A DNA stretch of 64,000 nucleotides from Streptomyces sp. NRRL B-3428 (GTDB taxonomy: Bacteria; Actinomycetota; Actinomycetes; Streptomycetales; Streptomycetaceae). Position numbers and translations under genes: made by a program. Location of the stretch: NCBI GenBank assembly GCA_000721375.1, contig JOGW01000008.1:372001-436000 (forward strand), read 5' to 3'. The notes below the pieces were generated by a model. That model ran no database searches and was not told the DNA's origin. It saw only the letters and a list, made by a program, of their open reading frames with translations. Positions 11,780-22,421 of this stretch are shown here, piece by piece; the stretch's first letter is position 1, and every line of letters begins with the position of its first letter.

Positions 11780-12589
11780 ATGGCCAAGGAGACCGCCGTC
11801 TACACGCACGGACATCACGAGTCCGTACTGCGCTCGCACACGTGGCGCACCGCCGCCAACTCGGCCGCCTACCTCATCCCCGAGATCAAGCCCGACCAGC
11901 GGATCCTGGACGTCGGTTGCGGGCCCGGCACCATCACCGCCGATCTGGCGGCCCTGGTACCGCAAGGTCGCGTGACGGGGGTCGAGCTGGCGGCCGGCGT
12001 GCTCGACCAGGCGCGTGCCGTGGCGGCCGAACGCGGCCTGGCCAACACGGAGTTCGAGACCGCCGACGTACATCAGCTGCAGTACGCCGACGACAGCTTC
12101 GACGTCGTGCACGCCCATCAGGTGCTGCAGCACGTGGGCGATCCGGTGCTGGCGCTGCGCGAGATGCGCCGTGTGACGCGGCCCGGTGGGATCATCGCCG
12201 TCCGCGATTCGGACTACGCGGCCATGACCTGGTATCCGCAACCGCCCGTCCTGGACGACTGGCTGGAGCTGTACCGGCGGGTCGCCCGCGCGAACGGCGG
12301 GGAGCCGGATGCCGGACGGCGTCTCAAGTCGTGGGCACTGCGGGCGGGTTGTGCGGACATCACCGCGACCTCGAGCACCTGGACGTACTCGACGCCCGAG
12401 GAGCGCGCCTGGTGGAGCGGCCTGTGGGCCGACCGCACCACGGGCTCGTCGTACGCGAAGATCGCCGCCGAAGGCGGGCACGCGAGCCCGCAGGACCTGG
12501 AGCGCATCGCACAGGCCTGGCGCGAGTGGGGCCAGGCCGAGGACGGCTGGTTCTGCGTCCTGCACGGCGAACTGCTGATCCGCGTGTGA
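11780..12589 (+). CDS. Class I SAM-dependent methyltransferase (UbiE-like)
   Basis: A 269-residue cytosolic methyltransferase. Motif I is DVGCGPGTITAD at about 44-55, followed by the acidic loop VTGVELA, motif II FDVVHAHQVLQHV, and the post-I DSDYAAM region. The domain order matches UbiE/COQ5-like small-molecule methyltransferases. The C-terminal 90 residues are helical and rich in Trp (ERAWWSGLWADR, REWGQAEDGWF). The ATG follows GGAAGGGGTACCGGTC. It ends 16 bases before the convergent gvpL stop. The substrate is unknown and no biosynthetic cluster surrounds it. Confidence 0.87.
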   Translation: MAKETAVYTHGHHESVLRSHTWRTAANSAAYLIPEIKPDQRILDVGCGPGTITADLAALVPQGRVTGVELAAGVLDQARAVAAERGLANTEFETADVHQLQYADDSFDVVHAHQVLQHVGDPVLALREMRRVTRPGGIIAVRDSDYAAMTWYPQPPVLDDWLELYRRVARANGGEPDAGRRLKSWALRAGCADITATSSTWTYSTPEERAWWSGLWADRTTGSSYAKIAAEGGHASPQDLERIAQAWREWGQAEDGWFCVLHGELLIRV

Positions 12590-12605: not shown

Positions 12606-13286
12606 TCACCGCTCCCGGTCTCCGCTTCCCCCTTCAGGATCACTGAAGGAGTACGCGGCCCAGGGACCGCCGAGTTCGACGCGCAGCCCCGGCTCCTGCT
12701 CCCCCACGCGCTCGACGTGTGCCACGAACTCCTCGCAGTCCGAACGCTCCACCAGGTAGGACCCGTTGAGGGCGATGCGACCGAAGTCGCGGGAGAGCGA
12801 CGGGGGATGCAGCCGGGTCGCGGCCGAGCGTGCGGTGAGCTCGTCGTGCAGTGCGTGCGCGAAGGATGCGGCGCGCGCCGGGTGAGCCGCCGGCTCGGCG
12901 TACACCTTGACCCCCCACTCCACGCAGCCGTCGATCCGCGAGAGCAGCGTCCGCAGTTGATCACCCTCGTCCTGAAGCATCGTCCGTACGCCGCTGTCGT
13001 CACGGAAGATCGTGCCCAGACGCAGCGGCAGCGGGCAGGTGACCGTGGTCAGGGCGGCGATCACCGCTTGATGCGTGCGGGCGGTCTCGGTGAGCCAGCC
13101 GCTGTCCTCCAAGTGGGCCCGTAACGGCTCATAACCGAAGTCGGCGTAAGGGACAGGGCTGAGCACGGCGACCAGGTCGCCGTGCTCCAGTTGTTCGAGC
13201 GGTGCGCCGCCGACACCCGCGAGGTCCGCCTGCAGGGCGGCCTCGAAGGGCCGGCACACCGCGTACACATAGCGAAGTTGATTCAT
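12606..13286 (-). CDS. gvpL: Gas vesicle protein GvpL (GvpF/L family)
   Basis: A 226-residue GvpF/GvpL-family protein, a minor gas-vesicle assembly factor. It starts LRYVYAVCRP and contains PLRLGTIFRDDSGVR, VEWGVKVYAEP and the C-terminal family signature GGPWAAYSFSD. The ATG at 13286 has an AGGGAGGCG ribosome site. It is the last of three minus-strand gvp genes here (O, F, L). The structural gene gvpA and gvpG, J, S, K, usually interleaved in Streptomyces clusters, are missing from this stretch. Without GvpA nearby its function here is uncertain. It is convergent with the methyltransferase gene. Confidence 0.87.
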   Translation of the reverse strand: MNQLRYVYAVCRPFEAALQADLAGVGGAPLEQLEHGDLVAVLSPVPYADFGYEPLRAHLEDSGWLTETARTHQAVIAALTTVTCPLPLRLGTIFRDDSGVRTMLQDEGDQLRTLLSRIDGCVEWGVKVYAEPAAHPARAASFAHALHDELTARSAATRLHPPSLSRDFGRIALNGSYLVERSDCEEFVAHVERVGEQEPGLRVELGGPWAAYSFSDPEGGSGDRER

Positions 13287-13348
13287 CCAGGTCGCCTCCC
13301 TGTGGGCCGGAGTGTGCGTGATCGGCCACGTACTGACAGGTGCACGGG

Positions 13349-14104
13349 TCAGTGGCCCGCCGTCGGGGCGGCGTGCGGGGCCGGGCCGGGTTCGACGAAG
13401 CTGTAGGGCGGCAGCGGGCCGTTGACCCTGAGGTCCAGATGCGGGTGGTCGTAGCGCAGGCGCTCCACCGAGGCGATGAACTCCGCAGCCGCGTCACGCG
13501 AGACGAGGAAGGAGACATTGGCCAGCCATCCGGCGCTCTGCGGGCCGAGGCTCACTTCGTCGGCGGCCCGTTCGAGCTGCCGCTGTACCGCCACCGCGTC
13601 CGACGTCTCCCGGCCCTGCACCGCCTGGACCACCAGCTCGCCCAGCCTGAGGCGCTGCTCGTAAGTACCGCCCGCAGCCAGGCGGTTGGCCTCCGTGAGG
13701 GTCCGTAGCTCCGGGTTGTCGCTCATCACGCGGCGCAGGACCCCCTCTTCGTCATGGGCGGCCTTCACGTTGAACTCGACCTTCCCCTCGAGCGCCGCCA
13801 GCCGTTCGGTGTAGTGGTCCGCTCGCTCTTCGAGCACGACGGCCACGGTCTTGTCGTCGGGTGCGGTGGAGCCGAAACGCATCGGAAGGACCGGGCCTGC
13901 TTCGCCCGCCTCGCTGAGGACGTTCTGATGAGCGAGGAGGTCGTCGCGCCGGGGCCGCAGCCGCTCCGGTGCCTCGCTGACCAGGGCCGAGAGCTGCCCT
14001 GCGGTGACCATGCGCACAGGGCGTGCCGGATCGCCGATACCGCTGGCGCCGACGGGCGGTGACGGGTGCGAACTGCGCACGATGCCATAGATGTAAGTGG
14101 TCAC
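13349..14104 (-). CDS. gvpF: Gas vesicle protein GvpF (GvpF/L family)
   Basis: A 251-residue GvpF-type protein, in known clusters an accessory assembly factor at the vesicle nucleation tip. It has TTYIYGIVRSS at the N-terminus, PVLPMRFGSTAPD, KVEFNVKAAHDEE and the C-terminal GPLPPYSFVEPG. I chose the GTG at 14104 because GGAGGAAGC lies just upstream; an in-frame extension would read low-complexity Pro/Arg/Gly from a tandem repeat. It lies 62 bases before gvpL and 89 bases after gvpO, the position where gvpA normally sits. Likely co-transcribed with gvpO and gvpL. Confidence 0.87.
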   Translation of the reverse strand: MTTYIYGIVRSSHPSPPVGASGIGDPARPVRMVTAGQLSALVSEAPERLRPRRDDLLAHQNVLSEAGEAGPVLPMRFGSTAPDDKTVAVVLEERADHYTERLAALEGKVEFNVKAAHDEEGVLRRVMSDNPELRTLTEANRLAAGGTYEQRLRLGELVVQAVQGRETSDAVAVQRQLERAADEVSLGPQSAGWLANVSFLVSRDAAAEFIASVERLRYDHPHLDLRVNGPLPPYSFVEPGPAPHAAPTAGH

Positions 14105-14124
14105 TCCGCTTCCTCCTCGCCCTC

Positions 14125-14184
14125 CTCCTGGGTGTCGGTGGACCCTCCTGGGTGTCGGTGGGCCCACCTGGGCGCCGGTCGGCC
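14125..14184. repeat. Three 20-bp tandem repeats between gvpO and gvpF
   Basis: Three head-to-tail 20-bp units (14125-14144, 14145-14164, 14165-14184). The first two differ by one base; the third is diverged at four positions. The core is CTCCTGGGTGTCGGTGG. They fill the 89-base gap where gvpA usually lies and are just upstream of the gvpF ribosome site. Confidence 0.85.
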
Positions 14185-14193
14185 CGCTCCCGG

Positions 14194-14532
14194 TCAGCGC
14201 CCGGGTGTCCGCTGGGCGTCCGCGCGGCCGCGTTCGTAGCGGCGCAGTCGGCGGTAGCCCATCAGCACTCCCCGCGGGTCGAGGTCGACGGAGTAGCTGG
14301 CGAGCAGGCTCATGGTGTCGGGGAAGCGGGTGAGTTCCAGCACCTCTATCTCCAGGTGCCAGCCGTCCTCGGTGCGTTCGAAGGCCGAGACGCTCTCGGC
14401 CTTCATCCCGGTGAACTCGGCCAGCTGCAGTCGGGCCTCACGCAGCACGGCCGCCGGGCCCGCCGTCTGACGGTCTCCGTTGCCGCTGTCCGCGGGCCGG
14501 GTTTCCTTTCGGATCCTGCTGGTATCGGTCAT
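14194..14532 (-). CDS. gvpO: Gas vesicle protein GvpO
   Basis: A 112-residue protein matching GvpO. It has a variable charged N-terminus, then the conserved helix AVLREARLQLAEFTG, then GWHLEIEVLELTRFPDTMSLLASY, and DLDPRGVLMGYRRLRRYERGR near the end. GvpO is an accessory or regulatory gas-vesicle protein that opens actinobacterial gvp clusters. The ATG at 14532 follows GGGAGGTTCTG. A SigB-type promoter candidate lies 19-43 bases upstream, in the 55-base gap behind the transketolase stop. It is first in the reduced gvpO-F-L set. Confidence 0.88.
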   Translation of the reverse strand: MTDTSRIRKETRPADSGNGDRQTAGPAAVLREARLQLAEFTGMKAESVSAFERTEDGWHLEIEVLELTRFPDTMSLLASYSVDLDPRGVLMGYRRLRRYERGRADAQRTPGR

Positions 14533-14587: not shown

Positions 14588-15538
14588 TCACGGCACCACT
14601 GCGTGTTCCACGAGCAGACGTACGGCTGCGGCGATCGCGGCCGCGTCGATGCCCGCGGAGCGCAGTTGTTCGCCGGGGGTCGCGGAGCCGGGCATGTGCC
14701 GCACGGCGAGGCGTACGAAGCGCGGCACGGGACGGCCGTCGGCGAAGGCTTCGAGCACCGCGTCGCCGAGTCCGCCTTCGGGCCGGTGGTCCTCGACCGT
14801 GATGAGACAGCCGGTCTGCTCGGCGGCCTCCTGAAGGGTGGCGGTGTCCACCGGCTTGACCGAGTAGAGGTCGATGACGCGGCAGGCGATACCGATCGTC
14901 GTCAACTGTTCGGCGGCGGCGAGCGCTTCGTGGACCGTCACGCCGGCCGCGACGAGGGCGACCCGGTCCGCATCCGAGGAACGCACCACCTTGGAGCCGC
15001 CCACCGGGAAGCTCTCGTCGGGCCCGTACAGCACAGGAGTCGCCGCGCGCGTGGTGCGCAGATAGCCGATGCCGGGACGTTCGGCGAGCGTCGCGACGAG
15101 ACGGGAGGTCTGGTTGGCGTCGCAGGGGTACAGGACGGTCGAGTCGTGCAGCGCACGGAACAGTGCGAGATCCTCCAGCCCCATCTGCGAGGGACCGTCC
15201 TGTCCGATGGAGACTCCGGCGTGCGACCCGACGAGGTTGAGGTCGGCGCCGCTGACCGCTGCCATCCGCAGGAAGTCGTGCGCCCGCGTGAGGAAGGCCG
15301 CGAACGACGAGGCGTACGGGGTGAATCCGCGCGCCGCGAGACCCACGGCGGCCGCGACCATCTGTTGCTCGGCGATGTAGCACTCGAAGAACCGCTCCGG
15401 ATGCTCCTTGGCGAACAGCTCCGCCTTGGTGGAGTCGCTCACCTCACCGTCGAGCGCCACCACGTCCCCGCGCGCCGAGCCGATCGCGGCCAGGGCCTGT
15501 CCGTAGGCCTCGCGGGTGGCGATCTCCGCACCCCTCTC
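14588..15538 (-). CDS. tkt: Transketolase, C-terminal half (separated by an in-frame TAA)
   Basis: This frame continues transketolase directly after a TAA at 15541-15539. It begins ERGAEIATREAYGQAL and carries the pyrimidine-binding domain (AEQQMVAAAVGLAARGFTPYASSF, GVSIGQDGPSQM) and the C-terminal domain (VEDHRPEGGLGDAV). There is no ATG or GTG after the stop until 15466, which is already inside the conserved domain. It therefore is not a natural subunit start. A shortened protein from GTG 15466 would be 292 residues. Either the gene is a fresh pseudogene, the stop is a base error, or the TAA is read through. It lies 55 bases upstream of gvpO. Confidence 0.8.
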   Translation of the reverse strand, partial: ERGAEIATREAYGQALAAIGSARGDVVALDGEVSDSTKAELFAKEHPERFFECYIAEQQMVAAAVGLAARGFTPYASSFAAFLTRAHDFLRMAAVSGADLNLVGSHAGVSIGQDGPSQMGLEDLALFRALHDSTVLYPCDANQTSRLVATLAERPGIGYLRTTRAATPVLYGPDESFPVGGSKVVRSSDADRVALVAAGVTVHEALAAAEQLTTIGIACRVIDLYSVKPVDTATLQEAAEQTGCLITVEDHRPEGGLGDAVLEAFADGRPVPRFVRLAVRHMPGSATPGEQLRSAGIDAAAIAAAVRLLVEHAVVP

Positions 15539-15541
15539 TTA
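15539..15541 (-). other. In-frame TAA splitting the transketolase gene
   Basis: The codon sits between LELPR and ERGAEIATREAYG in one uninterrupted frame from 16444 to 14588. Single-chain transketolases, including the human enzyme, have a tyrosine at this place (LPSYKVGDKIATRKAYG), so TAC or TAT to TAA is the simplest explanation. Confidence 0.8.
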
Positions 15542-16444
15542 GCGCGGTAGCTCCAGATGGCCGCTGCGTACGGCGTGCAACATCCGGGCCGCAGGCGGCT
15601 GTTGGATCTCGATCCGCAGATCACTGACCCCGCCGAGCTCCTCGATGGCCTCCTCGGGATGCTTGAGCGGTTTGCCGTGCAGGCCCTCGCGGTCCTCGAC
15701 GTCGGCCACGCCCTTGCCCTTGAGGGTGCGGGCGAGGACAGCGGTGGGCCGGCCCAGTGTGGAGCGCGCCTCGGCGAAGGCCTGGTCGACGGCGTGCACG
15801 TCGTGGCCGTCGCACTCGACGGTGTGCCAGCCGAAGGCCTTGAGCCGACGGGCGTAGGCGGCCAGGTCGTGGCCGTGGCGGGTGGGGCCGCGCTGGCCCA
15901 GGCGGTTGACGTCGACGATCGCGATGAGGTTGTCGAGCTGCTCGTGTCCGGCGTGTTCGGCGGCTTCCCATACGGAGCCTTCGGCGAGTTCACTGTCGCC
16001 GCAGAGCACCCAGACGCGGAAGCCGGACCGTTCCAGGCGCTTGCCGGCGAGCGCCATCCCGACGCCGACCGGCAGCCCCTGGCCGAGCGAGCCGGTGGCG
16101 ACCTCGACCCAGGGCAGCGTGCGCGGCGTCGGATGCCCTTCGAGTCGGCTGCCGAGCATACGGAAGGTCCGCAGCTCGTCGTCCTCGACGAGACCGAGTG
16201 CCTTGTACGCGGCGTACAGCAAGGGTGACGCATGGCCCTTGGACAGGATGAAGCGGTCGTTGCCCGGGTGCTCGGGCCGTGCGAGGTCATGGCGCAGATG
16301 GCGGGTGAGCAGGACGGCCATCAACTCGGCGGCCGACATCGAGGAGGTCGGATGCCCCGATCCTGCGGCCGCGGTCATACGGATCGAGTCCACCCGCAAC
16401 TGCTGCGCGATCCGGGCGAGTTCGGCATCGGACGGTTGCGGCAT
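15539..16444 (-). CDS. tkt: Transketolase, N-terminal (TPP-binding) half
   Basis: A 301-residue reading frame carrying the thiamine-diphosphate-binding domain of transketolase. It has SIRMTAAAGSGHPTSSMSAAE, LSKGHASPLLYAA, and the TPP motif GDSELAEGSVWEAAEH ending in IAIVDVNRLGQ. Transketolase moves two-carbon ketol units in the non-oxidative pentose phosphate pathway. The ATG at 16444 follows GGGAGGCACCAG. The frame ends at a TAA after LELPR, and the same frame continues with the C-terminal half. A SigB-type promoter candidate lies about 75-100 bases upstream. A second housekeeping transketolase probably exists elsewhere in the genome. Confidence 0.85.
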   Translation of the reverse strand: MPQPSDAELARIAQQLRVDSIRMTAAAGSGHPTSSMSAAELMAVLLTRHLRHDLARPEHPGNDRFILSKGHASPLLYAAYKALGLVEDDELRTFRMLGSRLEGHPTPRTLPWVEVATGSLGQGLPVGVGMALAGKRLERSGFRVWVLCGDSELAEGSVWEAAEHAGHEQLDNLIAIVDVNRLGQRGPTRHGHDLAAYARRLKAFGWHTVECDGHDVHAVDQAFAEARSTLGRPTAVLARTLKGKGVADVEDREGLHGKPLKHPEEAIEELGGVSDLRIEIQQPPAARMLHAVRSGHLELPR

Positions 16445-17731: not shown

Positions 17732-18382
17732 ATGCGGATCTTCGCTTGGCCATTCGGCGGCCCTACGCGTGGCTCCTCGCACGGCTCCTCGCACGGCTCC
17801 TCGCGCGGCTTTTCGTGTGGCGCGCCAGGTCGGTCTCATGCGAACCTCCTGGCCGTGGAGAGCGCGGAGGTGCTGCTGATCGGCGGCCGTTCAGGGGTGG
17901 GCAAGTCCTCGGTCGGATACGAGGTGTCGGCGCGGCTGAGGCAGGCCTCGGTGGCCCATGCCCTGATCGAGGGCGATGTGCTCGACCACATCCATCCGGC
18001 GCCCCCGGACGACCCGGACCGCTCGAAGATCACCCAGCGCAATCTGGCCGCGCTGTGGGCGAACTACACAGAGCTGGGCTGCCGCCGGCTCGTCTACACG
18101 AACACGGCCGCCGTGCTCGGGAGCGAACAGTGGCTGTTCGACGGGGCGTTGGGCGCCGGCTGCAGGTTCTTCCACGTCCTGCTCACGGCAACGGACACCA
18201 CCGCCGCCGAACGCCTGGCCGGGCGCGAACTCGGCTCCGAACTGGAGCAGCAGCTGCGGCGCAGCGCCCACATGGCGCGGCGGCTCGATGAGCACGCCGC
18301 GCCGGGGACGGTGCGCGTCGCGACCGACGGGCGGTCGGTGAGCGAAGTGGCGCGGGCGGTCGTCGCCGTAACCGGCTGGTGA
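17732..18382 (+). CDS. P-loop NTPase, small-molecule kinase-like
   Basis: A 216-residue protein with a clear Walker A GGRSGVGKSS (51-60) in a nucleoside/gluconate-kinase-like fold. It continues with an IEGDVLDHIHP substrate loop and TDTTAAERLAGRELGSEL near the lid. The substrate is unknown. The first 40 residues are low complexity, partly encoded by a GGCTCCTCGCAC tandem repeat (Gly-Ser-Ser-His). The true start may be the GTG at 17855, which begins six residues before the first beta strand, though it has no good ribosome site. It follows the enolase-family gene by two bases, so the two are an operon. Confidence 0.75.
   Translation: MRIFAWPFGGPTRGSSHGSSHGSSRGFSCGAPGRSHANLLAVESAEVLLIGGRSGVGKSSVGYEVSARLRQASVAHALIEGDVLDHIHPAPPDDPDRSKITQRNLAALWANYTELGCRRLVYTNTAAVLGSEQWLFDGALGAGCRFFHVLLTATDTTAAERLAGRELGSELEQQLRRSAHMARRLDEHAAPGTVRVATDGRSVSEVARAVVAVTGW
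17771..17818. repeat. 12-bp tandem repeat coding Gly-Ser-Ser-His
   Basis: GGCTCCTCGCAC at 17771-17782 and 17783-17794, GGCTCCTCGCGC at 17795-17806, and a decayed fourth unit to 17818. It falls in the uncertain N-terminal extension of the P-loop protein, which argues that this stretch may be untranslated. Confidence 0.8.
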
Positions 18383-21437: not shown

Positions 21438-22375
21438 TCAGGATTGCGCAAAGCCGACCAGTGCGGTCACCACGAGGTCGGCGAGGAGAGCGCCCGCGGT
21501 GCCGTCGGGGTCGAGGTCCGGGTCGTAGATCGTGATGTTGAGACCGACGCAGTGCTCGGAGGCGGCCAGGGTGCCGAGCAGCGTGACGAGTTCCTCGGGC
21601 AGCAGGCCGCCAGGGTCGGGTGCGTCGACGGCGGGCATCACGGACGGATCGAGGCTGTCGGCGTCGAAGTGCACCCAGAACCCTTCGAGTTCACCGATCT
21701 CCAGTGACTGCCGTACGGCTCCCGCGATCTCGGCCGGACCCCACTCGCGGATCTCGCCGACGCTCGCGTTCGTGATCTTCAGCTCGCGCAGCTCGTCGCG
21801 CTGCGGGTCGTCGTCGCGGATGCCGAAGAGCCGTACGTCCTCGTCCTTGAGGTACGGGCGCAGGCCCTCCAGATCCGTCAGGTCCGGCTGTCCTCGTCCG
21901 GTCGCGAGCGCGAGCTCCTCGCCGCCCGCGGCGCCGACTCGCCCCGAGTTGCCCGGATGGCGGAAGTCGGTGGAACCGTCGATCGCGGCGAGGGCGTAGC
22001 GGCCCATCCGCCGCATCGCGAGGGAGGCGCCAAGCTGGATCGAGCAGTCGCCGCCGAGTACGACCGGGAAGTCGCCGGCGCGCAGATGGTGCTCGATACG
22101 GTCGGCCAGCTTGATCGTGTATGCGGCGATCGCCTCGGCGTTGAAGACCCCGTCGCCCTCCTGCCAGTCGCCACGGTCGTAGCGGGGCGGGACCACCACC
22201 CCGCCCTCGAAGGCGCCGAGCCGCTGCACGATCCTCCCCCACTGCCTCAAGGGCGTGGGGGTACCCCCTGCTCCCTCAGCGCTCCGGCCAGCTTGTAGAC
22301 ACCCGGCACGGTGCCGGGGACCGGAGGGCGCAGGCCCAGGTTGGAGGGGGCGTCGAGGACCACGATGCGTCGCAT
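21438..22375 (-). pseudogene. Arginase/agmatinase-family gene frameshifted by a short repeat
   Basis: The N-terminal 36 codons from ATG 22375 read as a normal start (MRRIVVLDAPSNLGLR, PGVYKLAGALREQG). They then run into an element at 22230-22267 and stop at TGA 22249-22247. The rest of the protein resumes in another frame as IVQRLGAFEGGVVVPPRYDRGDW and runs to the end with GGDCSIQLG, FDADSLDP and TIYDPDLDPDG, the manganese-ligand regions of the ureohydrolase family. The family hydrolyses guanidino groups. Removing 32 bases restores one frame of about 300 residues. It is therefore probably inactive unless rescued. Confidence 0.8.
22230..22267 (-). repeat. Short palindromic repeat inserted in the arginase-family gene
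   Basis: A 38-base segment on the minus strand opens with GGGGTACCCCC, can fold by CCCCCAC with GTGGGGG around a 12-base loop, and ends TTGAGGCAGTGGGGGAGG plus ATC. It shares both ends with the element at 2537-2584. If the ancestral sequence was GAG-CAG-GGG-ATC-GTG-CAG, the net insertion is 32 bases. Confidence 0.65.
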
Positions 22376-22421
22376 ACGGTCCATACTCGGCGACCTGGGG
22401 TCGATCACTCAAGACGCCGGC

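Follow-up and report, generated by a model that had tools for sequence, protein, structure and literature searches.

Among the closest described counterparts of the locus analyzed here are transketolases encoded by two genes. The split-gene transketolase of Carboxydothermus hydrogenoformans (PDB 6yaj/6yak) is described as active on mixing of its subunits and as lacking the linker; residues 1 to 162 of its C subunit (ChTK-C) are assigned to the Pyr domain, again with the linker missing, and the same account describes both transketolase domains as required for thiamine diphosphate binding (PMC7661550). A candidate split SF transketolase has been described in gut Faecalicatena (PMC11659671), and in view of this example we dropped the idea that split transketolases are confined to thermophiles and archaea, as described in PMC7661550. 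As far as these accounts describe them, both enzymes resemble the present locus in that a PP frame is followed by a Pyr plus C-terminal frame, with the cut in the same linker. They differ from it in consisting of two genes, whereas a single gene is found here, a candidate only, without a canonical second start; the linker that is absent from the Carboxydothermus enzyme is here retained on the N-terminal part. In Streptomyces coelicolor, SCO6497 is listed as a transketolase and SCO6499 to SCO6508 as a gas-vesicle cluster (PMC6629963). Streptomyces also uses NTC start codons, namely ATC in infC, a start reported in the literature, and GTC in sigR, a start shown by experiment (PMC5472188).

The transketolase gene of this study (tkt) lies in a window of 64,000 nucleotides, the whole stretch of DNA that was analyzed, from Streptomyces sp. 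NRRL B-3428 (genome G000). A sequence-only reading of the window had claimed a single frame from 16444 to 14588 that is open except for one TAA, and translation of the minus strand bears this out: 301 sense codons, the TAA, 316 sense codons, and a terminal TGA, which places the stop at codon 302 of 618. The flanking residues, LELPR before the stop and ERGAEIATREAYG after it, were likewise as that reading gave them. The best solved match, over residues 9 to 618 of the read-through frame, is the human-type short transketolase (PDB 4kxu and others), which is a full-length single chain, unlike the tkt of this genome. The read-through frame scores 941.4 bits against the transketolase equivalog NF004559 (PRK05899.2-5), for which the cut-off is 488 bits, while the actual pieces score 437.4 and 483.7 bits and both fall under it. 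The PF02779 match in the second piece begins at the fifth residue of that piece. The stop separates the PP and Pyr domains, as in split transketolases, and the second piece is devoid of the canonical start before the Pyr domain that a second gene would have; the first in-frame ATG, GTG, or TTG past the TAA is the GTG at 15463 (codon 328), in agreement with the earlier statement that neither ATG nor GTG occurs before the next domain. TAA terminates 2 of 110 long open reading frames (ORFs) in 400 kb of the genome and is thus a rare yet ordinary terminator here.

The position equivalent to codon 302 is a sense codon in all 138 aligned loci (TGG in 66, TAC in 51, TTC in 19, and CAC in 2), and the best aligned tkt frame is free of stops in every one of them. 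These loci comprise 29 found in relatives, 29 obtained by a DNA search of the genus, and 80 on GTDB contigs, the latter being the best 80 of 331 in a scan that may omit the window's own record, and some genomes are counted twice. The nearest relative with DNA (G229) has TAC at codon 302, one transversion from TAA, and S. indicus has TTC. The residue is therefore aromatic (W, Y, or F) and rarely His across the loci; tyrosine, which had been named as the residue of relatives, does occur but is not fixed. The genus search matched tkt in 255 of 392 genomes at E ≤ 1e-150, the own genome included, and a count by eye of the 150 matches listed found an internal stop in G000 alone. The comparison with close Streptomyces relatives proposed by the sequence-only reading has thus been carried out, and the finding that would have told against its account, relatives with the gene split at this point, was not encountered in any of the 138 loci. 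The TAA is private to G000 among the genomes examined, and this absence of the inactivating lesion from relatives is the pattern of a young pseudogene.

TABLE 1 Features of the tkt locus and the adjoining gas-vesicle remnant (window coordinates)
Feature	Position	Strand	Remarks
tkt 5' part, codons 1-301, PP (thiamine-diphosphate-binding) domain and linker	15542..16444	-	PF00456 residues 11-264
In-frame TAA, codon 302	15539..15541	-	Sense codon in 138/138 homologous loci
Shine-Dalgarno-like AGAGAGGGGTG, overlapping the stop by its final A	15529..15539	-	Duplex -15.0 kcal/mol with 12-base 16S tail
ATC, codon 308, hypothetical non-canonical start for a C-terminal subunit	15521..15523	-	
GTG, codon 328, within the Pyr domain; earliest canonical in-frame start past the stop	15461..15463	-	
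tkt 3' part (Pyr plus C-terminal domains), codons 303-618 with TGA	14588..15538	-	PF02779, PF02780
gvpO, open frame	14194..14532	-	PF05800
gvpF, open frame, gvpA missing ahead	13349..14104	-	
gvpL, open, faster-evolving; gvpG-gvpJ missing ahead, gvpS and gvpK behind	12606..13286	-	
Methyltransferase; same DNA just past the gvp cluster in G229, the old cluster edge	11780..12589	+	

Selection on tkt was analyzed with a purpose-written codon model on six taxa and 609 tkt codons. The omega value is 0.059 on the G000 branch (upper 95% limit, 0.096) versus 0.052 elsewhere, and neutrality on that branch is rejected (2dlnL 44.85). The 3' part alone gives an omega of 0.057 with an upper limit of 0.128, and by this model both halves of the gene remain strongly constrained. 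If the branch is divided into constrained and neutral periods, the neutral share is at most about 5% for the whole gene and about 9% for the 3' part. Relaxed constraint was thus not detected on the G000 branch, a result that fits only a young lesion, and it follows that any null allele arose recently, unless some product is still made. The test is noisy, since the MR/MLE gene neighboring tkt in G229 gave an omega of 0.517 versus 0.057 (2dlnL 4.86), and the gene trees differ.

The gene is typically part of a gas-vesicle neighborhood, tkt being followed downstream by gvpO and gvpA in 69 of the 80 loci. In G000, the cluster (window 12606-14532) is down to gvpO, gvpF, and gvpL, all with open frames; gvpA, gvpG through gvpJ, gvpS, and gvpK are gone between flanks shared with G229, a genome in which all these genes are present. 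GvpA was sought as a protein, because the PF00741 profile matched no control genome, and was not found anywhere in G000, while 32 of 61 genomes have it in a search set that included G000. A protein search of G000 for GvpJ, run without a control, was empty, and gvpS, gvpK, and gvpG were not found within 400 kb. Constraint on gvpL is relaxed on the G000 branch (omega 0.204 versus 0.067; 2dlnL 8.61), and no significant change of omega was seen on this branch for gvpF or gvpO (2dlnL 1.08 for gvpO). We take the accessory tkt to be orthologous to SCO6497, and as at the S. coelicolor locus, the transketolase here stands beside a gas-vesicle cluster; the two loci differ in the break at codon 302 of the G000 frame and in the loss of most gvp genes from G000. 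The suggestion that gas-vesicle loss explains the loss of tkt is weakened by 11 of the 80 loci, which are without gvpO or gvpA in the flank examined and have no stop in tkt, so that erosion of the cluster alone does not account for the stop.

A second transketolase, the search for which had also been proposed, is encoded elsewhere in the genome: a full-length housekeeping enzyme of 695 amino acids (aa), from G000:C2:181353 onward. Ortholog-grade matches to the 3' part of tkt occur in 24 of 36 other same-genus genomes (E ≤ 3.2e-140) and are lacking in the other 12, and 137 of the 392 genus genomes are without a match at E ≤ 1e-150; the accessory tkt is thus missing from about a third of the genus. 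The broken tkt is an accessory gene that is naturally dispensable.

We favor, with a probability of roughly two in three, the interpretation that this accessory, gas-vesicle-linked transketolase was recently inactivated by a single-base nonsense change. The change would have created the TAA at codon 302 very recently, the C-terminal half would no longer be made, and the allele, presumably null, would be tolerated because the enzyme is dispensable; loss of function of tkt would be the outcome. We count in favor of this interpretation a second broken gene in the window, which carries a net 32-bp insertion. Counted against it are the lack of relaxation on the branch, the position of the stop in the only linker that might tolerate a cut, and the outlying Shine-Dalgarno (SD)-like site that adjoins the stop. 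A young nonsense allele would be ordinary, yet it captures an accessory enzyme being lost as a gas-vesicle locus erodes.

The frequency of broken genes was surveyed in 400 kb with 197 S. indicus ORFs that have counterparts, and all 26 flagged ORFs were checked for position and overlap. Eleven of these have their stop within 10% of an end, 8 overlie another comparable ORF, and 3 further ones were dismissed by eye as a frame shadow, a fused junction, and an N-terminal extension. These 22 amount to shadow frames or extensions at an end, and what remains besides two clear breaks is a pair of short frames (150 and 164 aa). With only the breaks in tkt and an arginase-family gene and these two short frames among 197 ORFs, the idea of a generally poor assembly was rejected. 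The arginase-family gene (PF00491; window 21438-22390) is frameshifted by the net 32-bp insert at about 22233-22267, which holds the inverted repeat CCCCCACGCCCTTGAGGCAGTGGGGG, and the S. indicus copy of the gene is uninterrupted. A search with a loose text pattern found the repeat once in 400 kb of G000 and nowhere in 400 kb of S. indicus.

Five bases separate the SD-like AGAGAGGGGTG behind the tkt stop from the ATC of codon 308, which lies at the very beginning of the Pyr domain. The duplex of -15.0 kcal/mol compares with -10.9 at the tkt start, -13.0, -12.3, and -11.3 at the starts of gvpO, gvpF, and gvpL, a median of -7.4 over 110 aligned starts, and -11.6 at infC of G000 (GAGGAGG-ATCC-ATC), which is weaker than the tkt site. 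Sites at least as strong precede 8 of 13,297 in-frame start-like codons within conserved ORFs, the tkt site being among those scanned, and occur in 2 of the 138 homologous tkt loci. The corresponding segment of the relative used for comparison has -8.7, and -15 is attained by 1.0% of random sets of four substitutions made to it. A restart at the GTG at 15463 was considered as a source of active enzyme and rejected because its SD duplex is weak (-3.9) and Arg311 of the ATR motif, which we take to be the substrate-phosphate residue, would be lost; the neighboring GTG at 15460 has a duplex of -5.7.

An error in the consensus could have produced the TAA with a sense codon still present in the cell, considering that the stop rests on a single draft assembly of 74 contigs. 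No same-species protein is available for comparison among the best 120 listed, the nearest full-length match being 87% identical, the 301-aa fragment has one member sequence, which is the fragment of this genome itself, and constraint on tkt shows no relaxation. Such stops can also be artifacts elsewhere, as a database fragment (P0151) that ends at the same residue suggests. We nonetheless consider a base error unlikely, as the G000 assembly is 100% complete and 0.03% contaminated, the change is a substitution with no homopolymer slip, and the survey left 2 clear breaks and 2 short frames from 26 flagged ORFs. Translation through the TAA, by read-through or recoding, would also yield a full-length enzyme and would explain a frame that is open and constrained on both sides of the stop, at a site where W, Y, F, and H all occur among the loci. 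This is highly improbable: the stop is shared with no relative examined (0 of 138 loci), whereas conservation would mark a read-through site, TAA is an ordinary terminator in this genome and generally the least leaky stop codon, and the sole check for a recoding element, one local fold at the stop, gave a z-score of 0.69 and thus no unusual RNA folding. Among the explanations offered by the sequence-only reading, a fresh null mutation and a base error accordingly remain the leading ones, while read-through is left without positive support.

That reading had further concluded from the missing ATG or GTG that the locus is not a two-subunit enzyme. The premise stands, as no canonical start precedes the Pyr domain, but the conclusion is unsafe given the ATC start of infC, the GTC start of sigR, and the position of ATC 308, after a strong SD-like site, at the start of a natural C chain. 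Conceivably, tkt is a newly split gene for a two-subunit transketolase, in which the TAA ends the N subunit and a ribosome guided by AGAGAGGGGTG, a run that would have gained strength in this lineage, resumes 15 nucleotides on at ATC codon 308; the resulting C subunit (Pyr plus C-terminal domains) might pair with the N subunit by analogy with Carboxydothermus, and its start might be kept low by IF3, as with infC and sigR. The cut matches a natural split, since codon 308 is where the alignment with the C chain of PDB 6yaj begins, at residue 33 of the 341 in that chain, and if the surplus chain residues are an N-terminal tag, the first residue of ChTK-C would lie about three before codon 308. 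Arg311 would be retained, ATC serves as the start codon of Streptomyces infC (PMC5472188), and both halves of tkt are under strong constraint, which a young stop predicts equally well. Judging from the sequence, a working start at ATC 308 is possible; it is a candidate only, in contrast to the starts described for infC and sigR. The codon was, however, picked post hoc as one of 6 candidate starts listed in codons 303-340, and the purine-rich local coding motif E-K/R-G favors SD-like runs, with 12 of the 138 loci at -11.8 or lower. IF3 represses ATC starts, the split is seen in no relative examined, and the housekeeping transketolase leaves little need for a split enzyme. We therefore regard the two-subunit origin as doubtful, and a recent nonsense mutation as the preferred account. 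If true, one base would have split a one-chain transketolase into two subunits, gene fission at its first step, producing by one change what the split transketolases of other bacteria and archaea spread over two genes, and the restart would be a third NTC start in Streptomyces besides infC and sigR, of a kind that gene callers overlook.

Three further observations were made in the course of these comparisons. P0151 is a 305-aa transketolase fragment ending in LELPR from another genome (10.54-Mb contig); it contains a frameshifted-looking stretch, so its stop is likely due to a sequencing fault. It was not traced to DNA, the closest loci being 78% identical. Upstream of tkt, a kinase-like gene (window 17855-18382) has a raised omega on the G000 branch (0.220 versus 0.064; 3 taxa, 2dlnL 6.45). 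Finally, in 8 of the 80 loci, all in Streptomyces (L111, L127, L129, L131, L136, L142, L147, and L149), a gvpL-like gene follows tkt in a flank where no gvpO, gvpA, or gvpG was detected; these loci represent repeated retention of GvpL near the transketolase without the shell gene.
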